Origin: Eudoraea adriatica DSM 19308 | GTDB lineage: Bacteria > Bacteroidota > Bacteroidia > Flavobacteriales > Flavobacteriaceae | Direction: 5' to 3' | NCBI RefSeq assembly: GCF_000382125.1 | Contig: NZ_KB907549.1 | Coordinates: 398,965-462,964 of the forward strand | DNA length: 64,000 nt | Part shown: positions 1-64,000 of the stretch, piece by piece | Numbering within the stretch: position 1 is the stretch's first letter | How the letters are laid out: each line of letters starts with the position of its first letter | Translations under genes and position numbers: made by a program | Notes under the pieces: model-generated | What the model was told of the DNA's origin: nothing | Seen by the model: the letters and a program-made list of their open reading frames with translations, nothing else | Databases searched by the model: none

Positions 1-540
1 TTTTATGGACCAAAATTAGATTTCATGGTCAAAGATGCCTTAGGCAGAAATTGGCAATTGGGGACAATTCAGGTCGACTATAACCTGCCGGAACGCTTTG
101 AACTCACCTATAAAGGCAGTGATAATGCGGAACACAGACCCGTAATGATTCACAGGGCACCGTTTGGCAGCATGGAGCGATTTGTGGCCTTGTTACTTGA
201 ACATACCGGAGGAAATTTTCCATTATGGCTTACCCCGGATCAGGCTATTCTGCTGCCGGTAAGTGAGAAACATGAAAAATATGCCGAAAAAGTTTTAAAT
301 TCCTTGGAAAATCACGAAATTCGCGCGCTCGTTGATGTTAGGAACGAGACTGTAGGTAAGAAAATACGGGAGGCAGAAATGAATAAAATACCGTATATGC
401 TGATTGTAGGTGAAAATGAAGAGGAACAAAATACAATTTCGGTGCGCAAGCACGGAGGTGAAGACCTGGGCATGCTAAGTATAAAAGAATTTGCAAACTT
501 GGTCGAAAAGGAAATAAGTAGTACATTAAAGTCGTTTTAA
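1..540 (+). CDS. thrS: Threonine--tRNA ligase, C-terminal part (5' end outside window)
   Basis: This is the last 179 residues of a class II aminoacyl-tRNA synthetase that charges tRNA-Thr in the cytoplasm. The reading frame is open from base 1, so the start lies upstream of the window. The visible part begins in the catalytic core (FYGPKLDF, then [13 protein letters not shown], typical ThrRS core segments, and [11 protein letters not shown]). It continues into the anticodon-binding domain ([14 protein letters not shown], then [17 protein letters not shown]). The order thrS-infC-rpmI-rplT that follows is the classical translation-factor cluster and supports the call. Nothing unusual is visible in the fragment. 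Confidence 0.95.
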
Positions 541-54197: not shown

Positions 54198-54857
54198 TTA
54201 AAGGCTTGATGAAGCTTCTTTATCTTCTTCCTTGTGAAAGATCAAATCTTGATCTTCAAGGGCAAAAACAACAAGTTTTATATAATCATCTACTGCACTT
54301 TTTATGTTTGAAGGGTCTGTAATATCGATTATTCCGCGCCATATGAGTTCGCGTTCCTTACCAACACAAATACAGTAAAGGGAAGTCTCTGAGTGATATA
54401 CCGTATATGCATCGTAATAATTTTCATCATAATAAATATCCTGATGAGAGATATAATCTTCTTTGAAAGTTCCATAATAGCTATCCAGATCAGCCATACT
54501 TTTTCTAAAAGTTGCTTTATCTTCCGCGCCTAGAATTTTAGTGAATAAAATAGCATCAAAATCCTTATCCAGGAGTGATTGTTCCACCTCATCCAGTTCT
54601 TCCTCGGACCTTTCTGAATCTGTAAATCCTACATCAAATAAATCTATGCTTCGCATTGCTTCTACCCCCCTGTTGGTGAAATGTCGCTTCATTTTGGTTT
54701 CGTAATCTTCCCTGGCTTTGAGGTTAGATGTCATACCAACAATAAGTACTTTGCTGGCATCGAAAATTACAATGTCAGGATTCTTCCAACTATCTACCAA
54801 CTCGGTGGAGGAACATCCCATACCTAATAGTACAATTAAAATAAGTGCCTTCTTCAT
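54198..54857 (-). CDS. Lipoprotein of unknown function in the stress island
   Basis: 219 residues with lipobox MGCSS (Cys 15). The mature part starts with ELVDSWKNPDIVIFDASKVLIVGMTSN. This recalls Bacteroidota lipoproteins with a nucleotide-phosphate-like alpha/beta core and a Tyr-rich loop (YYGTFKEDYISHQDIYYDENYYDAYT). The C-terminus is acidic (HKEEDKEASSSL). It starts 9 nt after the helical-protein gene, so it is in its operon and under the palindrome at 55441. Confidence 0.6.
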   Translation of the reverse strand: MKKALILIVLLGMGCSSTELVDSWKNPDIVIFDASKVLIVGMTSNLKAREDYETKMKRHFTNRGVEAMRSIDLFDVGFTDSERSEEELDEVEQSLLDKDFDAILFTKILGAEDKATFRKSMADLDSYYGTFKEDYISHQDIYYDENYYDAYTVYHSETSLYCICVGKERELIWRGIIDITDPSNIKSAVDDYIKLVVFALEDQDLIFHKEEDKEASSSL

Positions 54858-54866
54858 ATGCTTAAG

Positions 54867-55310
54867 CTAATTTAACAATCGCTTTTGTTTTTCCTTCTTA
54901 ATTACATTAGAAACTAAACTAAAAAGCCCGGATTTGATCTGCATGTATTCTTCCTTATAATGCTCTATAGTACCGGCTAATTCTCTGTGGGTATCCCTGT
55001 AGGCCTTTTCCAATTCCAGCTGATCAATATCGTCGATCATAATTTCTAATTTGTTTTCGTGAGCCTGTATTTTTTTCATAAGAGAAATGGCTTCCTTTTC
55101 AAGATCGGTAAGTCTGGACACAATTTCTTTGCTTTTACCAAAGATTTTTGAATCTACCAATTGTACGGTATAATGTTTTATGAGGTTGTTTAAAAACATT
55201 TGTTCATCTCTCATAAATTTCACTTCTGACAGCCAAAGTATGGTTGCCCTATGCATCTCTTCGGGATCTATCCATTCAATATACCTGTGTGTGTTATCTT
55301 TTATATCCAT
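54867..55310 (-). CDS. Helical/coiled-coil protein, stress-island paralogue A
   Basis: 147 residues from the ATG at 55310 (a TTG at 55319 is less likely). Almost entirely helical: ILWLSEVKFMRDEQMFLNNLIKHYTVQL, MKKIQAHENKLEIMIDDIDQLELEKAYRD. It shares WxSExxFMxDExxFLxxLxxxY and a later HENKL motif with the neighbour at 55483, so the two are paralogues. There is no signal peptide. Function unknown. An AATGAT-N4-ATCAG palindrome lies about 130 nt upstream. Confidence 0.65.
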   Translation of the reverse strand: MDIKDNTHRYIEWIDPEEMHRATILWLSEVKFMRDEQMFLNNLIKHYTVQLVDSKIFGKSKEIVSRLTDLEKEAISLMKKIQAHENKLEIMIDDIDQLELEKAYRDTHRELAGTIEHYKEEYMQIKSGLFSLVSNVIKKEKQKRLLN

Positions 55311-55440
55311 TGTATTCAATTTTTAATCAGTACTCGTATAAACCTAAATAGTTTGATATCTATAATTCTATTTATTTTCGATTTGGTTTAGGATTATTTC
55401 TTATCTGATTACAATTTAGCGAACAGAAGAACAATAGGAA

Positions 55441-55454
55441 ATGATAATTATCAG
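55441..55454 (-). promoter_or_regulatory. Fnr-type palindrome upstream of helical protein A
   Basis: ATGAT-AATT-ATCAG on the plus strand. A minus-strand TA that could begin a degenerate -7 element (TAAATTGT, 55411-55418) lies 23 nt from the box edge, the same distance as at other copies. Confidence 0.65.
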
Positions 55455-55482
55455 GAGGGCCTGGGGGTTATTCCTTTCAAAT

Positions 55483-55902
55483 TCAGTCTGGTCTTCGTTT
55501 CCTTAAAATGCCCCCGGCATAATTGAATACTTCTGATTTTAGCACTTGAAATTGTTGTAAGCAGTTCACCACGTTGGCTTTTAGTTGCTGATGTTCAACA
55601 TGAACATCTTCATCGCAATGCCCGCTCTTACATTCCAAAGCACCGCCCAGCTTATTTTCATGTTGTATTATTTGTTCTTCTAATTCCTTTCCATAATTCT
55701 TAACCGTCTTCAGGCGGGCGAGATAATCCTGTAAACGCTCAAACAAGTTGGGCGTATCGGGTTCAAAAACATAAGAGTGGAGCAATTCTTCTATAAACAC
55801 CAACTCATCCTTCATCAGATGAAAGGAAGATTTCCATTGCCGGGAGTCTAAATGGAATTTTTCCAGATCATATGGTTTGCGATCTTTCGTTTTATTTTTC
55901 AT
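55483..55902 (-). CDS. Helical/coiled-coil protein, stress-island paralogue B
   Basis: 139 residues, mostly helical: WKSSFHLMKDELVFIEELLHSYVFE, then EEQIIQHENKLGGALECKSGHCDED. It has the same organisation as the protein at 54867. A Cys/His-rich piece after HENKL (ECKSGHCDEDVHVEH) is absent in the paralogue and could bind a metal. The tail is basic (ILRKRRPD). Function unknown. Directly upstream is a perfect ATGAT-N4-ATCAT palindrome. Confidence 0.62.
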   Translation of the reverse strand: MKNKTKDRKPYDLEKFHLDSRQWKSSFHLMKDELVFIEELLHSYVFEPDTPNLFERLQDYLARLKTVKNYGKELEEQIIQHENKLGGALECKSGHCDEDVHVEHQQLKANVVNCLQQFQVLKSEVFNYAGGILRKRRPD

Positions 55903-55948
55903 TAAAATGTATCTGTTTTTAAAACTACTCTCGAATTACAGCATGAAC

Positions 55949-55962
55949 AATGATCAAAATCA
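55949..55962 (-). promoter_or_regulatory. Fnr-type palindrome upstream of helical protein B
   Basis: ATGAT-CAAA-ATCAT, with the same flanks (AA before, GTA after) as the copy at 62713. A TA that could start a -7 element (TAGTTTAA, 55919-55926) lies 23 nt from the box edge, 47 nt before the start codon side. Confidence 0.75.
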
Positions 55963-55970
55963 TGTATCAA

Positions 55971-57335
55971 TTAAAAAATAAGCTCTGCGGTTTCAAATAA
56001 TTCCGGAATCCGGACTTTCCATTTATAGATATCTTCAATTTTATCTTTGAACGCTGCCAGGGCTTCCTGCTCTCCATGTATCAAAAAAACACGTTCCGGA
56101 ATATTTTTTATAGACGCCATCCAATCCAACAATTCTTTTTGATCCGAGTGGGCCGACAAACTTTCTTCATGGTATACACCGGCATTTACGGAATAGTATT
56201 TTCCAAAGATCTTAAGCTCCTTAGCCCCTTCTAAAAGTGCTCTACCCCTGGTTCCTTCGGCCATGTAACCCACCAGTAAAATATTGGTGTTCGGATTATC
56301 GACCAGTTGTTGCAGGTATGTGAGAATTCTTCCTCCGGTGACCATTCCACTTCCGGCAATAACAATTTTTGGTCTGGGATCATCTATAGTTTCCCATGTT
56401 TGCCTATAGGAATCAATAATATTAAAGTGCCTGCACATCGCCTTGTATTCCTTTTTCGATAATTTATGCCATTTGGGGAAACGTTCGAAAATGGCCAGCA
56501 CATCGTTTCCCATTGGGCTATCTATAAATATTGGGATATGCGGTATTTTGTTCTTCTTATAAAGCTTCCAGAATAAATACATCAAAGATTGCAAACGCTC
56601 TACCGCAAAGGAAGGAATGAGCAGATTACCTCTGGCGTAAAGGGTTTTGTTTACGAGCGAAACCAATCTTTCCTCAACATTATCCGGCGGGTGCAATTTG
56701 TTTCCATAGGTGCTTTCAACAAACAGAAAATCGGCCCACTCGGGCTTAACCGGGGGATCTAATAATAAATCCTCTGGCCTTCCAACATCGCCTGAAAAAA
56801 CAAAACGCTTACCGGAGATGTCTAATTCAATAAAAGCAGAACCAATAATATGCCCGTTGTATCTGAACCTATATTGGATATTCTCGGAAAGTTGCATCCA
56901 ACGGTCTAATTCTTCCGCTTTAAACAGGGTAATTGTATGTTCTGCATCATTCAAGCTATATAATGGCATTGCCGGCTTATGCTTGCTATAGCCCTCCCTA
57001 TTTGCCATTTCTGCTTCTTCTTCATTTATTTTTGCGCTGTCGAGCAATATTATCCTCGCGATTGCCAGAGTGGGTGCAGTTCCTATAATGTTGCCTTTAA
57101 AGCCTGCTTTCACCAGCCTGGGCAAATAGCCTGTATGATCCAGATGACCATGTGTTAACAATACAACATCTATTGAACCAACCGATACGGGTAATGGTTT
57201 CCAATTGGAAATCCTGAGATCTTTCTTCCCCTGAAACAACCCACAATCAATGAGAATATTCTTCTCCGTTGTTTCGAGATAAAATTTGGATCCGGTTACC
57301 GTACCTGAAGCGCCTAAAAAATGTATTTTAACCAT
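55971..57335 (-). CDS. MBL-fold metallo-hydrolase with beta-CASP domain (RNase/exonuclease type)
   Basis: 454 residues. The metal site is THGHLDHTG (His 62, His 64, Asp 66, His 67). The beta-CASP domain contains GSAFIELDISG..FSGDVG and IPSFAVERLQSLMYLF, then GSGMVTGGRILTYL. It ends with an RMMBL motif, FLIHGEQEALAAFK. Family members are RNA-processing nucleases of the CPSF-73/RNase J type. It lies 18 nt after the ATP-cone nuclease gene in one unit that starts at the palindrome at 58740. Confidence 0.88.
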   Translation of the reverse strand: MVKIHFLGASGTVTGSKFYLETTEKNILIDCGLFQGKKDLRISNWKPLPVSVGSIDVVLLTHGHLDHTGYLPRLVKAGFKGNIIGTAPTLAIARIILLDSAKINEEEAEMANREGYSKHKPAMPLYSLNDAEHTITLFKAEELDRWMQLSENIQYRFRYNGHIIGSAFIELDISGKRFVFSGDVGRPEDLLLDPPVKPEWADFLFVESTYGNKLHPPDNVEERLVSLVNKTLYARGNLLIPSFAVERLQSLMYLFWKLYKKNKIPHIPIFIDSPMGNDVLAIFERFPKWHKLSKKEYKAMCRHFNIIDSYRQTWETIDDPRPKIVIAGSGMVTGGRILTYLQQLVDNPNTNILLVGYMAEGTRGRALLEGAKELKIFGKYYSVNAGVYHEESLSAHSDQKELLDWMASIKNIPERVFLIHGEQEALAAFKDKIEDIYKWKVRIPELFETAELIF

Positions 57336-57353
57336 TATATCAATTTAATGGTA

Positions 57354-58196
57354 TTAAGTCTTACAAAGCATCCCCACTTCGTTGAGAATTTTAGTTTTTC
57401 TTATATCGGAAACCCCCAAATGATCCAGGTAGAAACTATCTTTTAACAATTGACGGCACAATACCACATCGCGGCTTAACAAAAATTGCTTCTCTCTTTT
57501 CGTCAAAAGTGTTGAAACTGTTATGGGGTATAACCCCAGCCTGTCTATCCGTTCTTTTATGCTATTCCCTTTTGGATAGTCCCAGCTTAGAAGGTACAGC
57601 CCTGTACAATTTCCATAGACTATGGCATCTTTGGTAAAACGTGTATTGGTAACCACCCAGCAATCGTCTGGTTCCCCAATATTTGAAATAGCATTATCCC
57701 CGGCATTTTTTATATCCAGGTATCTTGAATAAATGTATAAAGGAATCTTTACATTACAATTGCGACCTTGTTCTCCATGAAATTTACATTCAATAATTAG
57801 AATAGCACCATTTTTCTCCGCAACCACATCTATTTCATGGCTTACACATTTTCCGGAAACATTCTTTCCAACCTGAATTTTATAGCCCGAATACATTAAT
57901 ATGGCGCCTATAAACCTTTCAAAAGGAAAACCTGTAGGTCCGAGCTCATAAATAGCCTTTTTAAGTTTATATTTGGATGCGTATACCGGCTTTTTGCGCT
58001 TTAAATAGCTATAGGCCCTGTTATATAATTCTTTGGTTGTGATTCCATCATATAACTCTTCCCTGACCAGACTCAAAATCTGAGAAATCAGTTTACTGTC
58101 TGCGCCACTTCTTTTTAAAGAAGATCGTAACTTCTCTTCAGAGAATAATACTTTGTCACCCGAAGCCTTAACTATGAAAAAATCTTCTTTTGCCAT
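57354..58196 (-). CDS. ATP-cone plus PD-(D/E)XK nuclease-domain protein
   Basis: 280 residues. An ATP-cone (about 4-85: IVKASGDKVLFSEEKLRSSLKRSG, then GITTKELYNRAYSYLKRKKP) like those regulating ribonucleotide reductase is followed by an Mrr-like restriction-endonuclease fold (about 88-190). Its core is Asp 123 in HEIDVVAEK and Glu 136-x-Lys 138 in IIECKFH. A C-terminal helix-rich region (FYLDHLGVSDIRKTKILNEVG) may bind DNA. The nuclease may be gated by ATP/dATP level. It is in the operon between the release-factor-like and beta-CASP genes. Confidence 0.78.
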   Translation of the reverse strand: MAKEDFFIVKASGDKVLFSEEKLRSSLKRSGADSKLISQILSLVREELYDGITTKELYNRAYSYLKRKKPVYASKYKLKKAIYELGPTGFPFERFIGAILMYSGYKIQVGKNVSGKCVSHEIDVVAEKNGAILIIECKFHGEQGRNCNVKIPLYIYSRYLDIKNAGDNAISNIGEPDDCWVVTNTRFTKDAIVYGNCTGLYLLSWDYPKGNSIKERIDRLGLYPITVSTLLTKREKQFLLSRDVVLCRQLLKDSFYLDHLGVSDIRKTKILNEVGMLCKT

Positions 58197-58239
58197 AATA
58201 TTCCCTGATTGAGGTGGTCCACAAAAAGTTTATCTAATC

Positions 58240-58656
58240 CTAGGCGTTACCCTTTTTATTAAAGAATTCCCTTACCAGGGCTTTGACCTGATTTTCGGTC
58301 ATACTATCTGCCTTCTCCACGGTCTTAACCTTTAAAGCCAGTGTCTTATAATTTTCATTTAATTCTTTGAAAAGCTTTGCATTGGTATCAGCCGGACCAA
58401 AAATTGCTATGGCTTCAGCATCTTCCATTGTTTTTGCCAATTCCTTAAAATACGATTTCAATTGATGTTTCTCTCTTTCCAGATATTTGCTATCCTGCAC
58501 TACATCCTGAGGACCCCATCTTGTCTTAGAGCGCGATCCACCCTTTGGATTAAAGAAATCAATTTCAGAATAAATGGTATTGAATCTAACATCTTCATTT
58601 TGCAGTGTTACCAGATGTGCCTTTTCCTTGTCCAACCAAATTCCAATTTTCTTCAT
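58240..58656 (-). CDS. Bacterial release-factor-like (baeRF/host-attachment-type) protein
   Basis: 138 residues. It starts with KIGIWLDKEKAHLVTLQ and has AIAIFGPADTNAKLFKEL and a C-terminal TVEKADSMTENQVKALVREFF, features of the bacterial eRF1-related (baeRF) proteins sometimes misnamed host attachment proteins. Such proteins are linked to ribosome rescue or stasis. The GGQ loop of true eRF1 is not seen; GGSRSKTRWG may be the corresponding loop. It is the first gene of a three-gene unit behind a palindrome. Confidence 0.6.
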   Translation of the reverse strand: MKKIGIWLDKEKAHLVTLQNEDVRFNTIYSEIDFFNPKGGSRSKTRWGPQDVVQDSKYLEREKHQLKSYFKELAKTMEDAEAIAIFGPADTNAKLFKELNENYKTLALKVKTVEKADSMTENQVKALVREFFNKKGNA

Positions 58657-58739
58657 CTCTATAAATTATGAATTAGTATTGCGTTTGTATATCAGCATTG
58701 TAAGGATCTTATACTATTAATCCATTCATCAATTGTAAA

Positions 58740-58753
58740 ATGATGGCTATCAG
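58740..58753 (-). promoter_or_regulatory. Fnr-type palindrome upstream of the release-factor-like operon
   Basis: ATGAT-GGCT-ATCAG, overlapping the stop codon of the upstream usp gene and 83 nt before the start at 58656. The -7 element here is less clear (TAATAGTA at 58712-58719). Confidence 0.6.
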
Positions 58754-59598
58754 TCGGTATATGGGAGAATTAGAAATGGTATGTTTATATTAAAACTTAC
58801 TTTTTCTATTACCGGTTCCCGCGTTAATTTCTCCAAAAAACCGTGTTTGTAATGAATCATTGCCAGCATATCAATACCCAATTCGTCAATAAAATCAGTA
58901 ATCGCCCTGGTTTTGTTAGTAAAATCGGGCATCCAATGTATGGTATGTCTAATATTTACCAAATACTCCCGTAGGGTATATAAATTAGATTTCTGTACCG
59001 GACTTAGCCTTTCTTCTTCATTTATATGCACTATAGAAATGTTAGAACTACAATTTGATGCCAATGTTTGGAGCGGTTGCAAAACTTTGGCATTGTAATT
59101 CTTCTTGTAGTCCGTGGCAAAAGCAATACTGGCAGGCGGCAAAAACTCCTTTTCCCCCGGAATAGTCAATATGGGACAATCCTTAATTGCATTTATGGAT
59201 TTAATTACGCTACTACCCAGAAATATGGATTTAGCCCCGGTTTTCCCTTTATTGCCCATCACAAGAAGATCGGCTTTCGTTTCTTTAATGGCCTGTGATA
59301 GAGCATCAACTAAATTTTTATTTTTTGAATGAATACTAATATGATGCCTGGGATTCCCTGAATCAAGATTTATTTTGTGCAAAAATCCATTTAACCCCTC
59401 CAGGGATTCCTCCTCCAATTGCTGTAATAAACTTAAATTACGACCTGCGGCCTGACAATTACTTTTTAGCGGGGTATGCTCCGTATAGGCATTGATTATA
59501 TGGAATGAGCAATTACAGTCTTGAAACAAGAGCTTGGCATAAAAAAGGGCGTTATAGGCATTGTTGGAAAAGTCAGTGGCAACAAGAATATTTTTCAT
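58750..59598 (-). CDS. Universal stress protein, tandem-domain
   Basis: 282 residues with two UspA domains. The first has MKNILVATDFSNNAYNALFYA and the ATP-binding-type loop MGNKGKTGAKSIFLGSS. The second (from about 158) is degenerate. Third gene of a run of three usp genes separated by about 20 nt. Confidence 0.88.
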   Translation of the reverse strand: MKNILVATDFSNNAYNALFYAKLLFQDCNCSFHIINAYTEHTPLKSNCQAAGRNLSLLQQLEEESLEGLNGFLHKINLDSGNPRHHISIHSKNKNLVDALSQAIKETKADLLVMGNKGKTGAKSIFLGSSVIKSINAIKDCPILTIPGEKEFLPPASIAFATDYKKNYNAKVLQPLQTLASNCSSNISIVHINEEERLSPVQKSNLYTLREYLVNIRHTIHWMPDFTNKTRAITDFIDELGIDMLAMIHYKHGFLEKLTREPVIEKVSFNINIPFLILPYTD

Positions 59599-59616
59599 TA
59601 AATTTTCTGTTTTTCT

Positions 59617-60450
59617 TTACGGAATAACCATAAAAGGAATGCTAACGTGAAATCCTATTTTCTTAATAACAGGTTCTATAAAAAGACTTTCCAAAAAGGT
59701 ATGCTTGTTTTGGATCATTGCCAACATGTTCATCTTGTTTTTTAATTGGAAATTATTTATTCCGGTTATGATTTCCTGACTTGGGAGATCATGAAACAAG
59801 TTGGGAGTTTTCTCTAATAGTTGTTCCAGTTTGGCCTTATTTTGTTCCTGAAACTCGGTAAGGTCATAACCGCTGGATATATGTATTACCTGAATCCTGG
59901 ATTTGTGTAATTCAGCCAAATCAAGAAGAGCAGTCAATTGTTCCTCACTGTACTCCACTTCAAAGTCCGTAGGAAACAATATTTCTTTAGGTGTTTCGAA
60001 CTCAAAATCTGCAGGAATTGCAATAACAGGACAAGTAGCTTTTTTAATGACATGAACCGTATGTGTGCCAAGGAAAATTTCTTTTGCCCCGGTTGCTCCC
60101 TGAGTACCCATTATTACCATATCAGCATTTTCATTGGCAACCATTGAGGCTACTTCATCTACAAGGATATTAAAAGCAGAATGGGTAATTATAGTATGCT
60201 TTGGATTCTTAAACTCCTTCTGAAGTTGTTTTTGAAGTTCTTCTAGCTGATTTATAGATTCTGATTGGTAAATATCTCCCAGACCAATCTGACCAGGGCT
60301 GTGCAACAAATATTCTGTTTGGTAAATTGCCGGTGTATAAGTATTCATCAGATAAAAAGTTGCCTCCTCATCCTTTAAGAGGTTCATTGCATAAGTGATA
60401 GCGTTATATGCATTATAGGAAAAATCGGTAGGAAGAATTATTTTTTTCAT
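59617..60450 (-). CDS. Universal stress protein, tandem-domain
   Basis: 277 residues with two UspA domains. It starts with KKIILPTDFSYNAYNAITYA and has the nucleotide loop MGTQGATGAKEIFLGTH in domain one, whereas domain two (KEILFPTDFEVEYS...) lacks a full loop. Middle gene of the three-usp operon. About the same length as its neighbours but clearly diverged. Confidence 0.88.
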   Translation of the reverse strand: MKKIILPTDFSYNAYNAITYAMNLLKDEEATFYLMNTYTPAIYQTEYLLHSPGQIGLGDIYQSESINQLEELQKQLQKEFKNPKHTIITHSAFNILVDEVASMVANENADMVIMGTQGATGAKEIFLGTHTVHVIKKATCPVIAIPADFEFETPKEILFPTDFEVEYSEEQLTALLDLAELHKSRIQVIHISSGYDLTEFQEQNKAKLEQLLEKTPNLFHDLPSQEIITGINNFQLKNKMNMLAMIQNKHTFLESLFIEPVIKKIGFHVSIPFMVIP

Positions 60451-60468
60451 GATACGTGTTTTTAAAAG

Positions 60469-61314
60469 TTAACGCGACAGGTTTTGCAAAACCAAAAATG
60501 GTATTTTTATGTGTAACCCTATTTTCTCAATAGTGGATTGATGCAACATTTGCTCCAGATGTGAATGCCTGGAATTAACCATTATCAAAAGGTCTATTTC
60601 TTTATGGACAATATATTTGGTGATTGCAACGGTTTTATCCTTTCCTTCTATCGTTTCAAAAAACAAGTCGGCTTTGTACAGGCATTCTTTTAAAAAACTC
60701 ATATTGTCTTCCTGTCGAAGTGAAAGTTTCTTGGTAGAGTTAATATAGAGCATATGAATAGATGATTTGAAGGAACCCGTTAATTCACACAATAATTTTA
60801 ATTCTCTCCTTTTATAAGGCACCATATAATCTGAAGGAAACAAGAGCTCTCTGGGTTGATGGTATTTGTAATTTTCAGGAATTGCCAGAACTGGGCATTG
60901 GACGTATTTCAAAACCTGAACGGTATTGCTTCCAAAGGTTATGGTTCTGTCATTCGTTTCACCCCTTGTCCCCATTACAACGATATCCGCATTTTCCAAA
61001 TTAACAAGATCATTGATTTCATCTGTAAGAGTGCCAAAAGCCGATACTGACTTGAATTTATGCCTTGGGTTGGGTGAGTACTCAAAGATATCTTTGCGTA
61101 TTTTTGCCAGTTTTTTTTCAGAATTATTGTAGGTTACCTCTTTTAGTTCGTCTAATGAACTTCGCTTAACAATCCGGTCTTGCTGATAAACCTCATCTGC
61201 ATAAGCATGTAAGATATAGAAGTCGCTCCTGGTATATTTGAATAATTGGCAGGCATATTTTAGTGCATTGAATGCATTTTCAGAAAAATCTGTGGGTACT
61301 ACAACTTTTCTCAT
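60469..61314 (-). CDS. Universal stress protein, tandem-domain
   Basis: 281 residues from the ATG at 61314 (an in-frame TTG at 61320 is less likely). RKVVVPTDFSENAFNALKYA and loop MGTRGETNDRTITFGSN in domain one; RELLFPSDYMVPYKRRELK in domain two. First gene of the usp run. A near-copy of the palindrome lies 56 nt before the start, with TAATTTTA 23 nt from its edge. Confidence 0.88.
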   Translation of the reverse strand: MRKVVVPTDFSENAFNALKYACQLFKYTRSDFYILHAYADEVYQQDRIVKRSSLDELKEVTYNNSEKKLAKIRKDIFEYSPNPRHKFKSVSAFGTLTDEINDLVNLENADIVVMGTRGETNDRTITFGSNTVQVLKYVQCPVLAIPENYKYHQPRELLFPSDYMVPYKRRELKLLCELTGSFKSSIHMLYINSTKKLSLRQEDNMSFLKECLYKADLFFETIEGKDKTVAITKYIVHKEIDLLIMVNSRHSHLEQMLHQSTIEKIGLHIKIPFLVLQNLSR

Positions 61315-61339
61315 AACCAATTTATCTTTGGAACTGCAT

Positions 61340-61383
61340 TAAAATTACCACTTAACAAGACAGTAAACCATGACATTAATCAG
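61340..61383 (-). promoter_or_regulatory. Fnr-type palindrome variant and -7 element for the usp operon
   Basis: The palindrome variant ATGAC-ATTA-ATCAG (61370-61383) differs from the others at one position. The minus-strand -7 element TAATTTTA (61340-61347) matches the one at 62683 in 7 of 8 bases and has identical spacing. It may also serve the divergent thioredoxin gene. Confidence 0.65.
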
Positions 61384-61432
61384 TTACTGAACTCTTTATA
61401 TTTTTTAAATTAGCCACAAATGATTGAAAAAA

Positions 61433-61732
61433 ATGAAACAAAATTTTCGAAAATTAACGTCGGGTGATATTCCTGTGCTTGTAGATTTTTATGCAGATTG
61501 GTGTGGCCCTTGTAAAATGCTGGCCCCCATCCTAAAGCAGGTTAAAGAAGAATTAGGTGACACCATTAAAATTGTTAAGATAGATGTAGATAAAAATCAA
61601 TCCATTGCCTCGAAATATCAGGTGAGAGGTGTTCCCACGATGCTTCTTTTCAAGAATAATAAGCAACTATGGAGACAATCCGGGGTTTTGCCAAAAAATG
61701 AAATAATAAATATCATTACGTCCTATAGGTAG
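61433..61732 (+). CDS. trxA: Thioredoxin
   Basis: 99 residues with the WCGPC active site (FYADWCGPCKML), the cis-proline loop RGVPT and the usual length. Reduces disulfides in the cytoplasm. Start chosen at the ATG 61433; an upstream TTG at 61424 adds only three residues. Divergent from the usp operon, sharing the palindrome region 61370-61383, so probably part of the same stress regulon. Confidence 0.93.
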   Translation: MKQNFRKLTSGDIPVLVDFYADWCGPCKMLAPILKQVKEELGDTIKIVKIDVDKNQSIASKYQVRGVPTMLLFKNNKQLWRQSGVLPKNEIINIITSYR

Positions 61733-61820
61733 ATGTATGAAAACCGGAAGTATCACCACCATTTGGATCTTCCCGTTAGATTCTGCAAGCACATAAAGAA
61801 ACAGCAACTTCGGCCGACTA

Positions 61821-62660
61821 TCATTCGTGTAATACCAGGAAAGGAATATCTGTATGGTAACTAATTTCTTCTACGGTTGGCCTGAAAAGAATTCGTTGGA
61901 AATAGTTAAGGTTTTTAGCCACCATTGCCATCATATCAATGTCTCTGCTCTCAATAAAGCACTGAACAGAAGTTTCCAGTTTTACACCGGTTAGGGTATG
62001 GAAACTATGGTCTATATCCCTCAGATAATCATGTAAAAAGTCCTTATTCCTGTTTTGTTCTTCCGTTAAAACTTCACCTTTTTTAGAAATATGAACTACT
62101 CTTAAAACAGAATTATTCATTGAAACCATTTCAAGTAAAGTATCCAGGACTTTGATATCATATGCAATATGAAAATCGGTTGGGAAGGCTATTTCTTTTA
62201 GTCTTCTGTAAACAGAATTCTCCGGAACTGCCAGCAAAGGGCATTTTACCTTGGTTATCACATCACCGGTATTGCTTCCCATAGCTACTTTTTTAAGCCC
62301 GGAAGCACCTTTAGTTCCCATTATAATAAGGTCTATCTCTTTATCTTCTACTTCCTTCTTGATTCCATCTGTGAAAAAATCATACTTTGCCTTTGAAACA
62401 AATGAATGCAATTCATTGTTATGATGCTCTTTAATAAAATCCACAAGTTTTTTCAGATCTTTTTTGCTTTGAGTTAAAACTTTTTCCTTTAGCATTACAG
62501 AACTACCCTTAACGGAAGTTCCGGCTCCCGAATAGGGTGGGATTGGATTAATGTGAATTATGTGAAAAGTACATTTGGTTTTCTTAAATAATTCAAGCCC
62601 ATAATTTATTGCATTATGTGCATTTTCTGAAAAATCTGTTGGGATTAAAATACGTTTCAT
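61821..62660 (-). CDS. Universal stress protein, tandem-domain
   Basis: 279 residues with two UspA domains. It starts with KRILIPTDFSENAHNAINYG; the nucleotide loop is MGTKGASGLKKVAMGSN. A fourth usp, separate from the run of three and convergent with trxA. It has the clearest promoter of the island: palindrome at 62713 and TAATTTTG at 62683. Confidence 0.88.
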   Translation of the reverse strand: MKRILIPTDFSENAHNAINYGLELFKKTKCTFHIIHINPIPPYSGAGTSVKGSSVMLKEKVLTQSKKDLKKLVDFIKEHHNNELHSFVSKAKYDFFTDGIKKEVEDKEIDLIIMGTKGASGLKKVAMGSNTGDVITKVKCPLLAVPENSVYRRLKEIAFPTDFHIAYDIKVLDTLLEMVSMNNSVLRVVHISKKGEVLTEEQNRNKDFLHDYLRDIDHSFHTLTGVKLETSVQCFIESRDIDMMAMVAKNLNYFQRILFRPTVEEISYHTDIPFLVLHE

Positions 62661-62682
62661 CTTAGTCTGATTTGTTAAAAAA

Positions 62683-62726
62683 CAAAATTACATTCAGCAG
62701 GATAACCGTAAAATGATTACCATCAT
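62683..62726 (-). promoter_or_regulatory. Fnr-type palindrome and promoter of the fourth usp gene
   Basis: Palindrome ATGAT-TACC-ATCAT (62713-62726) and an exact TAATTTTG -7 box (62683-62690) whose TA lies 23 nt from the box edge. The box centre would be near -41, the class II position for Crp/Fnr activators. The start codon follows 22 nt after the -7 box. Confidence 0.75.
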
Positions 62727-62752
62727 GTACCAGTAAATTCGGGTTTCAAAAA

Positions 62753-63811
62753 TTAATAAGGAATCTTTTCTAACCGATCCATATCCAAAATTCTAATATC
62801 CCGATCCTGAATCTCAATAATGCCTTCTTTCTTAAAGTTAGACAAGGTTCTTATGAGAGTTTCTGTAGCCATTCCGGCAACACTGGCCAGATCACTCCTC
62901 AATACATGAATATTACCGGCTTCATCTTTCTGTAACTTATCTGCAAATTTCAGCAAGGTAGAAGCTGTTTTCTTGCGCACAGAACCATAGGCCATCTGCA
63001 ATAACTGCTCTTTTATCTGTATTAAGTCCTCTGATAAAAGTTGTAATAACTCCATAACGAGTTCGCTGTTTTGCTCCAAAAGTATTTTTAATTGATCCTT
63101 GTGAAGGCCAATTAGGGTAGAATCTTCCATGGCTGTGGCATATTCCCGATAAGGAATGTTCTTAGTAAAACTTGTAAAGCCAAAAAAATCGTCTGCTCTG
63201 TAAATTCCTGTGATTAATTCCTTCCCTTGCTCATCCAACTTATGTGTTTTTACGTTGCCTTTTATCACCAAATAAACCAAATTAGAGTTGTCTCCTTCCC
63301 GGTAAATTACATCGCCCATTTGAAAATAGAAATCATCCCCATTGTCATCAATAAAATTCTTGAGCTGATGAATACTCTTAACCTGCATATCATTTCCTGA
63401 AGTATCAGTTGTATAATTCTGTTGGGACTCCATAAGAATATTGGCCTTGGCAATCCTGCTTTCAATTGCACCGACAAGTTCTGATTCTGCGAATGGTTTA
63501 GTGAGGTAGTCATCTGCACCCAATTCCATTCCCAGTCTAACTTCCTTGTGTTCCGTTTTGGCAGTGAGAAAGATGAATGGTATTGCCTTGGTCTTATTGT
63601 CAGCGGACAAAGCCTTTAAAACACCATAGCCATCTAACTTTGGCATCATAATGTCGCATATGATAACGTCCGGGTGAGCCGCTTTAGCAGTCAAAACTCC
63701 CTTTTCCCCGTCAGGAGCTGTAATGACTTTGTAATTTGCCAATTCCAATAATTCTGCGGTGCTCTCTCTTAGAGTAGTGTCATCTTCAATTAATAATACC
63801 TTTTTGATCAT
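62753..63811 (-). CDS. Response regulator fused to a Crp/Fnr-type activator
   Basis: 352 residues. The receiver domain (1-120) has phospho-acceptor Asp 53 in ICDIMMPKLDG and Lys in LTKPFAESELV. A linker leads to a cyclic-nucleotide-binding-like fold (about 155-270: MGDVIYREGDNSNLVYLVIKG). A Crp winged helix follows (about 285-345). The recognition helix reads GMATETLIRTLSNFKKEG; Glu 317 and Arg 321 match the Fnr residues that contact TGA/TCA half-sites, with Ile in place of Ser. No N-terminal Fe-S cysteines are present, so control is likely by phosphorylation from the adjacent kinase. Candidate regulator of the palindromes in this island. Confidence 0.88.
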   Translation of the reverse strand: MIKKVLLIEDDTTLRESTAELLELANYKVITAPDGEKGVLTAKAAHPDVIICDIMMPKLDGYGVLKALSADNKTKAIPFIFLTAKTEHKEVRLGMELGADDYLTKPFAESELVGAIESRIAKANILMESQQNYTTDTSGNDMQVKSIHQLKNFIDDNGDDFYFQMGDVIYREGDNSNLVYLVIKGNVKTHKLDEQGKELITGIYRADDFFGFTSFTKNIPYREYATAMEDSTLIGLHKDQLKILLEQNSELVMELLQLLSEDLIQIKEQLLQMAYGSVRKKTASTLLKFADKLQKDEAGNIHVLRSDLASVAGMATETLIRTLSNFKKEGIIEIQDRDIRILDMDRLEKIPY

Positions 63812-63868: not shown

Positions 63869-64000
63869 TTATTTAATACTATTAACAGGGAGCTTAACGG
63901 TGAATGTACTCCCTTTGTTTTCAATACTTTTAAAGCTAATATTTCCTCCCAGATTTTCAATATGAAATTTGACAATATTAAGCCCTATTCCGGTACCCTG
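63869..64000 (-). CDS. Sensor histidine kinase, C-terminal end (5' part outside window)
   Basis: The last 43 residues of a HATPase domain. The fragment begins with QGTGIGLNIVKFHIENLGG (G2 box) and ends IENKGSTFTVKLPVNS. It ends 57 nt upstream of the response regulator-Crp gene on the same strand, so it is the likely cognate kinase. The sensing region is not visible. Confidence 0.88.
   Translation of the reverse strand, partial: QGTGIGLNIVKFHIENLGGNISFKSIENKGSTFTVKLPVNSIK

Follow-up and report, generated by a model that had tools for sequence, protein, structure and literature searches.

The window, that is, the whole 64,000-nucleotide stretch of Eudoraea adriatica DSM 19308 that was analysed, carries an island of genes on the minus strand, headed by the gene of a receiver-Crp fusion protein, REC-Crp (62753..63811). 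Four usp genes follow, assigned by Pfam PF00582: one at 61821..62660, the fourth usp, and three consecutive genes at 58750..61320 (60469-61320, 59617-60450 and 58750-59598). A trxA-like thioredoxin gene identified by Pfam (61424..61732, plus strand) was rejected as a member of the usp operon, as it lies on the opposite strand. Next on the minus strand are genes for a 138-aa protein of no known family (58240..58656; no Pfam or NCBIfam match at 0.001), which the sequence-only reading had called release-factor-like, for an ATP-cone protein with an Mrr-like nuclease fold (57354..58196; Pfam, with Mrr_cat below cut-off), and for an MBL-fold beta-CASP ribonuclease-like protein (55971..57335; Pfam, with NCBIfam matches below their cut-offs). 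Open reading frames for the 139-aa protein B (55483..55902; "helical" in the earlier reader's word), protein A (54867-55319) and a lipoprotein-like protein (54198-54857) complete the island, all three giving no Pfam match at 0.001. At the other end, the window closes within a histidine kinase gene directly upstream of REC-Crp (3' end at 63869..64000, minus strand; remainder outside the window; full gene G000:C4 462833-464728, 631 aa).

Five palindromic boxes, all proposed earlier and all verified in the 64-kb window, stand on the minus strand before these units: 55441..55454 (protein A and the lipoprotein), 55949..55963 (protein B; palindrome from 55949/55950), 58740..58753 (138-aa protein, ATP-cone and beta-CASP unit), 61370..61383 (three-usp operon; one mismatch, with the core TGATTAATGTCA matching the refined motif described below) and 62713..62726 (fourth usp). 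The claim of a box before every island unit stands for the boxes, but not for the placing of trxA in the usp operon; since trxA is divergent from that operon, the 61370 box lies between the two. A minus-strand TA exactly 23 nt from the box edge had been described for four of the five boxes, and four were found to have a TAnnTT-type -7 element at that distance. Scored by matches among the six fixed letters of TAnnTTTG, read 23 nt past the 12-mer core, they are TAATTTTG at 62683..62690 (6/6), TAATTTTA at 61340..61347 (5/6), TAGTTTTA at 55920..55927 (5/6) and the weak TAAATTGT at 55411..55418 (4/6). The exception is the 58740 box: the letters found 23 nt from it (ATAGTATA, 2/6) make no good -7 element. 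In L179, the counterpart of this promoter carries TAGTTTTA at the same distance.

Conservation in relatives, which had been suggested as a check, was found for every box: all five are conserved blocks in two syntenic Eudoraea MAGs, L178 (84% nucleotide identity) and L179 (79%). The palindromes at 55441, 55949, 61370 and 62713 are kept in both, the last also 3' of REC-Crp in other relatives, as are the half-sites at 58740, and the 55411 element reads TAAATTGT/TAAATTGG in L178/L179. One-mismatch matches to the motif number 55 in the window against 31.3 expected, a count reached in 0 of 100 shuffles. Judged by these patterns, the island boxes are real promoter elements.

The palindrome read earlier as ATGAT-N4-ATCAK is confirmed, although the true motif is looser at positions 4 and 9, where T or C and A or G, respectively, occur about equally; the refined form is [A/C]TGAYnnnnRTCAT-N23-TAnnTTTG. 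The genome scan proposed with the original pattern gave a sharp peak at 23 nt: TGATN4ATCA-N{8..38}-TANNTTTG has 23 matches in the E. adriatica genome, 16 of which have spacing 23 as judged by match length (binomial times 31 spacings, ~8e-18), and the reversed pattern has 0. These 16 strict sites are the most in any of 149 genomes, which together hold 409 sites at N23 vs 24 at the N18 control. The 80 named REC-Crp loci, which overlap the genome set in part (G007:C24 and L209 share a REC-Crp position), contain 111 TGAYN4RTCA sites at 23 nt, with none of 39 other spacings exceeding 5. In 17 relatives (L241-L257), most of which fall outside Flavobacteriaceae, the 23-nt sites number only 5, scattered and none adjoining REC-Crp. 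In all, the E. adriatica genome has 26 sites, every one outside open reading frames of 150 aa or more.

In the peak class, the box centre precedes the T of TAnnTTTG by 29.5 nt, which is compatible with -41.5. This geometry fits a predicted class II Crp/Fnr promoter with the site centred near -41.5, and the class II spacing assumed from the island is supported by the 23-nt peak. The combination of [A/C]TGAYnnnnRTCAT, 23 nt and TAnnTTTG would be a concrete promoter code for class II activation in Flavobacteriaceae. No description of the motif or of REC-Crp was found in the open-access literature among the matches listed, mostly at title or abstract level. The main text of a transcriptome paper on F. 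psychrophilum (PMC9723704) gave no match to Fnr or Crp. In a paper on an anammox meta-regulon (PMC8510549), a Crp/Fnr homologue from Flavobacteriales falls close to a MalR-like group.

REC-Crp is composed of a receiver (residues 5-116), a cNMP-binding fold (162-248) and a Crp HTH (282-350; Pfam), and belongs to the Crp/Fnr superfamily with PF00027 and PF13545 above cut-off. Its receiver is intact (D10, D11, D53, T83 and K105), and D10, D11, D53 and K105 are invariant in 29 sequences, its own included; with these residues and a linked kinase, it classes as a two-component response regulator, for which phosphorylation is predicted. The Glu and Arg that the sequence-only reading saw in the Crp/Fnr domain correspond to HTH residues Glu317 and Arg321, neither of which varies among the 29 sequences. 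That reading was also right that a receiver is present and Fe-S cysteines are lacking: the only cysteine is C52, and REC-Crp is therefore no [4Fe-4S] FNR. Nor is it a DosR, having HTH_Crp_2 in Pfam and no LuxR-type HTH, or a FixJ or FixK, as receiver and Crp HTH reside in one protein.

The partner kinase is built of a FixL-like PAS, a LOV domain, a further PAS, HisKA and HATPase_c, and a kinase-like ORF lies directly upstream of REC-Crp in 76/80 named relatives. The best PDB matches of PAS1 in the E. adriatica kinase are FixL, the rhizobial oxygen sensor (2.5e-9). Across 77 kinases, a His occupies the FixL heme-ligand column in 68 and the FixL distal Arg is found in 46; PAS domains that are not heme sensors can show His-containing patterns of this kind, too. 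PAS2 is a LOV domain (E 4.4e-36 to LOV proteins in PDB) with an intact adduct-Cys motif, NCRFLQ, so that at the sequence level the protein is a LOV photoreceptor kinase, with flavin binding and photochemistry predicted. Since only 9/77 kinases, this one included, have NCRFLQ, LOV is probably not the input shared by the family.

Comparative evidence points to REC-Crp as the reader of the boxes. A box, the 23-nt spacing, the element and a usp stand directly behind the REC-Crp gene in E. adriatica and in 24 of the 27 relatives that could be read (28 of 30 loci read, own included; L065 and L079 left out). Genomes were classed by chosen E-value cut-offs (P0001 below 1e-70 for REC; P0002-type at 1e-40 or better for Fnr), and mean strict sites per genome were 0.43 with neither (n=28; counted with the strict motif only), 2.31 with Fnr only (n=55), 3.07 with REC only (n=29; meaning that P0002-type Fnr is lacking and other Crp/Fnr proteins may be present) and 4.89 with both (n=37). 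REC-only genomes exceed those with neither at completeness of at least 90% (Mann-Whitney p 1.4e-6; 27 vs 17, genomes treated as independent); 3/29 of the former have zero strict sites, and 8/28 of the latter have at least one. Within the REC-only set, 33/89 sites lie within 20 kb of a REC-Crp gene. Nine REC-only genomes were surveyed for other Glu-x3-Arg helices, which are present in six; in G074, G089 and G118, no Crp-type HTH above cut-off other than that of REC-Crp has Glu-x3-Arg, and these genomes have 11, 6 (at 82% completeness) and 8 relaxed sites vs ~1.8 per 3.3 Mb expected from other spacings (32 matches over 39 spacings in 1.48 Mb). The island REC-Crp is a likely reader of the island boxes, as first proposed, given the conserved promoter behind its gene and the motif kept in genomes without a cco-linked Fnr.

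Targets, for which the first long ATG frame no more than 400 nt away was taken (450 for the 26 E. adriatica sites; some starts are approximate), include usp, hsp20, hemN-like, cytochrome c/nosZ-like and other genes in E. adriatica. As to the suggested clustering on usp-type genes, Usp targets go with REC-Crp: they make up 18/89 REC-only vs 1/69 Fnr-only sites (Fisher p 1.5e-4, sites treated as independent), where 89/89 REC-only sites and 70/127 Fnr-only sites were used, the latter comprising 30 tool-chosen loci and 40 sites picked blind to genes, with a gene called for 69. COX1/ccoN targets number 2 REC-only vs 9 Fnr-only, and hemN targets 10 vs 7. REC-Crp is a candidate for the control of Usp genes in a large family of bacteria. 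A smaller number of usp genes in Fnr-only genomes would likewise lower their Usp count.

From the motif, its spacing and conservation, the linkage to REC-Crp, the target genes and the kinase-regulator operon, all observed computationally, we infer that the boxes are probably class II Crp/Fnr-type activator sites, read in the island mainly by REC-Crp under its FixL-like partner kinase. The kinase would sense through PAS1, presumably with heme, and upon a change in oxygen, or in a related redox or ligand signal, would transfer phosphate to D53 of the receiver. Phosphorylated REC-Crp would then dimerise via its Crp part, bind the box centred near -41.5, and activate rather than repress usp, hsp20, hemN, cytochrome c/nos and other genes. 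Such a system would amount to a collapsed FixL-FixJ-FixK cascade, with the FixJ receiver and the FixK Crp domain in one protein, driving a DosR/lxa-like response.

The regulon was originally described as self-contained, a description we abandon because 26 sites are spread across the genome and a stand-alone Fnr-like protein carries a recognition helix of the same type. This protein (G000:C5 227458-228150; best NCBIfam score to Fnr, 8.7e-31, below cut-off) adjoins cbb3 oxidase, FixG-like and metal-ATPase genes and a usp, and its cbb3-linked type goes with the same motif elsewhere. A third Crp-type protein, L058 (G000:C1 565836-566480), has one of the 26 sites directly behind its gene. The Glu-x3-Arg helices of these other candidates in the genome are ESCIR and, for L058, EVVSR; the survey covered the 5/6 cNMP proteins on the correct strand, including L054, whose 124-aa frame contains no HTH. 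Looseness at position 4 (T or C) was rejected as a hallmark of REC-Crp sites, the strict/relaxed ratio being nearly the same (0.34 vs 0.36) in the comparison with Fnr-only genomes. As motif and looseness are alike there, sequence cannot tell the two regulators apart.

The stand-alone Fnr-like protein beside the cbb3 oxidase genes can probably act at these sites as well, and we give about even chances to a shared arrangement, i.e. one low-oxygen regulon with two inputs, which is compatible with reading by REC-Crp in the island. Genomes with both regulators have on average more sites than those with either one, E. adriatica itself has both together with the 149-genome maximum of strict sites, and each set includes hemN among its targets, although the remaining target classes differ (Usp vs ccoN and cytochrome c). 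That the island boxes are instead read mainly by the Fnr-like protein or L058, with REC-Crp acting elsewhere or only as a modulator, seems unlikely to us: the ESCIR and EVVSR helices, the usp beside the Fnr-like gene and its best score to Fnr, and the identical motif, spacing and looseness in Fnr-only genomes would allow it, but the motif is kept in the 29 REC-only genomes, including three that lack any further above-cut-off Glu-x3-Arg helix, boxes cluster at REC-Crp, and Usp targets nearly vanish in Fnr-only genomes.

We can imagine, as a speculative extension that is doubtful at present, that the FixL-like PAS and LOV in one kinase let both light and oxygen gate a programme for survival at low oxygen, an anoxia/dormancy-type regulon driven by REC-Crp, with a single protein standing in for the FixJ-FixK two-step in much of Flavobacteriaceae. 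Should the LOV domain be functional, one kinase would receive both signals. Light or flavin redox as the signal in place of oxygen is quite improbable. The LOV match with its intact NCRFLQ and a putative carotenoid-synthesis cluster behind a MerR/B12-binding-domain regulator, ~12 kb from REC-Crp, speak for it, but NCRFLQ is rare in the kinase family, and low oxygen is the signal suggested by the hemN, usp, hsp20 and nos-type targets. Finally, the idea that the pattern reflects chance or some general property of A/T-rich promoters, suggested by the A+T-rich intergenic sequence and the common one-mismatch matches in the window, is refuted for practical purposes by the single-nucleotide spacing peak, the lack of reversed matches and of sites within long frames in E. 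adriatica, and the near-background counts in genomes with neither regulator.

Under the preferred reading, the wiring resembles rhizobial FixL-FixJ-FixK in its FixL-like PAS kinase, receiver, Crp/Fnr-type activator devoid of an Fe-S cluster, and targets that include hemN and cbb3 oxidase genes. There, FixJ is a receiver with a LuxR-type HTH and FixK is a stand-alone Crp-type protein; here, receiver and Crp are fused, so that no LuxR-type FixJ step exists, the linked targets are chiefly Usp genes, and some kinases contain LOV. If the kinase senses oxygen, this would be an independent solution, with fewer parts, to the problem solved by FixLJ-FixK and DosR. FNR/ANR regulons share the type of palindrome (TTGAT-N4-ATCAA) and the Glu-x3-Arg recognition helix and have their sites at about -41.5, the position predicted here, whereas REC-Crp lacks Fe-S cysteines and half-site position 4 is T or C.

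The analogy to mycobacterial DosR drawn by the sequence-only reading fits for the two-component system, the Usp and HSP20 targets (HSP20 is a DosR target) and the hypoxia proposed here, but the wiring is closer to FixL-FixJ-FixK: DosR is a receiver with a NarL/LuxR-type HTH under GAF-heme kinases, unlike the Crp-type output and PAS kinases found here. The DosR regulon includes 10 USPs among 48 genes, according to PMC6127331. The oxygen-utilisation regulon NmpRSTU of Myxococcus xanthus likewise places Usp, hemN and cbb3-type oxidase genes under two-component control and its first kinase needs heme, but it employs an NtrC-like regulator, sigma-54 promoters and a phosphorelay (PMC11841059). The lxa (low-oxygen-activated) locus of Burkholderia cenocepacia is similarly Usp-rich, with an Anr/FixK-type regulator proposed for it; it belongs to another phylum, and the regulator in question is a Crp-type protein that stands on its own. 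PMC6127331 mentions that in Burkholderia a FixK is controlled by FixLJ, lists six Usps in lxa, and reports that BCAM0300, a 51-kDa metallo-beta-lactamase superfamily protein, rises with it. On our reading of the gene numbers, BCAM0300 would lie inside the lxa locus.

We found all five island palindromes at the positions proposed by the sequence-only reading (55441, 55949, 58740, 61370 and 62713). Its claim that four of them have a minus-strand element 23 nt away also holds: exactly 23 nt past the core on that strand, the fixed letters of TAnnTTTG are matched at 6/6 for 62713, 5/6 for 55949 and 61370, 4/6 for 55441 and 2/6 for the exception, 58740. Synteny of the 10.2-kb island extends to two Eudoraea MAGs, L178 and L179 (84% and 79% nucleotide identity). 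In this alignment all five boxes form conserved blocks within diverged intergenic DNA, and the -7 element is conserved along with the box at four of them; at the 58740 promoter, the 23-nt register is present in L179 and absent from the window. Three small island proteins without a Pfam family at an E cut-off of 0.001, encoded at 54867-55319, 55483-55902 and 58240-58656, have similar proteins in 22, 17 and 16 of 63 REC-Crp loci, respectively. The beta-CASP protein (55971-57335) matches the NCBIfam models for type VII Cas14 (389 bits, below the cut-off of 800) and archaeal aCPSF1 (285, below 580).

The arrangement recurs across the E. adriatica genome (3.9 Mb, 18 contigs), where a scan for TGATN4ATCA followed after 8-38 nt by TANNTTTG gave 23 matches, of which 16 have the 23-nt gap; the reversed pattern gave none. 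The looser core TGAN6TCA at 23 nt gave 26 sites, against none for the reversed pattern, and all 26 fall outside ORFs of 150 aa or more on both strands. Across 149 genomes of the family, 409 strict sites (TGATN4ATCA) have the 23-nt spacing versus 24 at 18 nt, an arbitrarily chosen control. In the 1.48 Mb covered by 80 named REC-Crp loci, the relaxed core TGAYN4RTCA occurs at 23 nt 111 times, in 57 loci, and 0-5 times at each of 39 other spacings. The profile from 110 TGAN6TCA sites in 63 loci (L178-L240) is [A/C]TGA[T/C]nnnn[A/G]TCAT, in which the four possible T/C-A/G pairings are nearly equally frequent (30, 29, 24 and 23; others 4). The T of TAnnTTTG, the -7 element of Bacteroidota promoters, lies 29.5 nt downstream of the box centre; with this element, the distance fits a centre near -41.5 and class II geometry. 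The median distance from element to start codon is 24 and 27 nt in the two target sets.

Six cNMP-binding proteins are encoded in the E. adriatica genome. L057 looks like an ion channel, the 124-aa frame of L054 has no HTH, and L059 lacks a Glu-x3-Arg helix. The other three have this helix, as ETLIR in REC-Crp, ESCIR in a 231-aa Fnr-like protein and EVVSR in L058. REC-Crp keeps its phosphorylation residues and has one cysteine; it is ruled out as an FNR, having no Fe-S cysteines, and as a FixJ or DosR, having no LuxR-type HTH. The Fnr-like protein (L121:9459-10154) adjoins a cbb3 oxidase gene (COX1 and FixO domains), FixG-like and metal-ATPase genes and usp, and its best NCBIfam score, below cut-off, is Fnr. 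A CxxC near the N-terminus is present in 11/11 distinct sequences, E. adriatica included; this protein also has Cys at 109, and no third N-terminal Cys at the place where E. coli FNR has one. Right behind the L058 frame (L058:1399-2043; G000:C1 565836-566480), a 23-nt-spaced box precedes a YgaP-like gene.

To relate the motif to its regulators, we split the 149 genomes by two proteins only, full-length REC-Crp, common in Flavobacteriaceae (66/149), and the Fnr-like protein (92). Mean strict sites are 0.43 with neither (28 genomes), 2.31 with Fnr only (55), 3.07 with REC-Crp only (29) and 4.89 with both (37); at completeness of at least 90% they are 0.29 (17), 2.04 (46), 3.19 (27) and 4.75 (36). 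In the latter set, REC-only differs from neither at p 1.4e-6 (27 vs 17; Mann-Whitney, ignoring phylogeny). Exceptions are 8/28 'neither' genomes with at least one site and 3/29 REC-only genomes with none. Site counts are raised with each protein, and therefore the motif goes with either regulator.

The odds that the stand-alone Fnr-like protein uses these sites together with REC-Crp are about even. Strict/relaxed counts are similar in REC-only (89/262) and Fnr-only genomes (124/343; 51 of 55 genomes), and therefore a site cannot be assigned to either protein by sequence alone. Of the 89 sites in REC-only genomes, 33 are no more than 20 kb away from a REC-Crp gene and 8 stand directly behind it. 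Allowing one mismatch, a box with an element of at least 5/6 letters at 23 nt stands directly behind REC-Crp in 25/28 readable loci, E. adriatica included, and by eye the following gene starts like Usp in 26/28; L069 and L077 have another gene, and L084 has usp without a box. Crp-type HTHs were listed for nine REC-only genomes (30 with loci read), six of which have a further Glu-x3-Arg helix. In the other three (G074, G089 and G118), REC-Crp alone has it among all above-cut-off Crp-type HTH matches, and TGAYN4RTCA sites number 11, 6 and 8.

A histidine kinase gene (G000:C4 462833-464728; L119:12834-14729; window part 63869-64000) lies 57 nt before REC-Crp. In 76/80 named relatives, an ORF of 300 aa or more ends no farther than 200 nt from REC-Crp, in many cases running into it; all 76 have a GTGLGL-type motif and 58 also match the H-box pattern used. 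With E. adriatica included (n=77), the kinases measure ~410 aa (49), ~505 aa (18) or ~630 aa (10). For the first PAS of the E. adriatica kinase, the best matches in the PDB are to FixL (E 2.5e-9). In FixL, a PAS His is the heme ligand and an Arg is distal; these columns hold His in 68/77 and Arg in 46/77 kinases. The second PAS, between two others, is by sequence a LOV domain (PDB E 4.4e-36) with NCRFLQ intact, a motif found in 9/77 kinases (8/76 relatives); this lineage and a few others thus have a LOV addition. In the REC-Crp operons of Mucilaginibacter (L241, L247, L251 and L257), the kinases carry IGIGREV, very close to the classical FixL heme-PAS motif, and no 23-nt box was found beside REC-Crp. 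About 12 kb from REC-Crp (L120:4649-8333) lies a cluster that reads as carotenoid synthesis, preceded by a MerR regulator in which Pfam recognises a B12-binding domain.

The computed results establish the operon, the motif with its spacing and conservation, the co-occurrence and the target genes, and we infer an oxygen signal, phosphotransfer, and binding and activation by REC-Crp. The FixL-like kinase would phosphorylate REC-Crp, which would bind the box as a dimer and contact RNA polymerase in class II fashion, overall a FixL-FixJ-FixK cascade in which one protein combines the second and third steps. The earlier observation of boxes and spacing is confirmed; its interpretation is borne out in part. 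The likeness to the DosR regulon is in content, and that of the kinase/REC-Crp pair to FixLJ-FixK is in wiring. Gene content also resembles that of the Burkholderia lxa locus (PMC6127331). In Myxococcus, a heme-dependent pathway leads to Usp, hemN and cbb3 genes with an NtrC-type regulator (PMC11841059). No paper on REC-Crp or the box motif was found among the open-access matches listed.

Computed targets differ between REC-only and Fnr-only genomes. First genes at REC-only sites (n=89) include Usp 18, hemN 10, cytochrome c 6 and COX1 2, versus 1, 7, 15 and 9 at Fnr-only sites (n=69); for Usp, Fisher p is 1.5e-4, with counts not scaled to usp copy number. Within 10 kb of REC-Crp, 63 mostly Flavobacteriaceae loci contain at least one usp in 60, at least three in 33 and a beta-CASP gene in 20. 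In E. adriatica, the first gene was called at 22/26 sites (none at L049; at L037, L044 and L052 the ORF start precedes the end of the element), and Pfam covers 20 of the 22, leaving out L031 and L045, the latter the window usp at 61821-62660. Pfam targets comprise Usp, HSP20, peroxiredoxin, YgaP-like, DoxX (below cut-off), radical SAM (hemN by reading, hemN itself being tested in relatives only), cytochrome c (followed by genes that read as FAS1-like and NosZ-like), POR/2-oxoacid oxidoreductase, a pyridoxamine-oxidase-like gene divergent from dodecin, TonB, a FadL-type porin, MlaE, an AI-2E transporter, a MetA-type outer-membrane protein, biotin carrier, flavin oxidoreductase, DUF1254/DUF1214 and a LytTR regulator adjoining the island; L264 has a CNECH motif and no Pfam family. 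Three boxes surround a DUF1254 gene (G000:C8 17173-18361; L125), and since the surroundings of two of them, L049 and L050, are near-identical, a promoter duplication is suggested.
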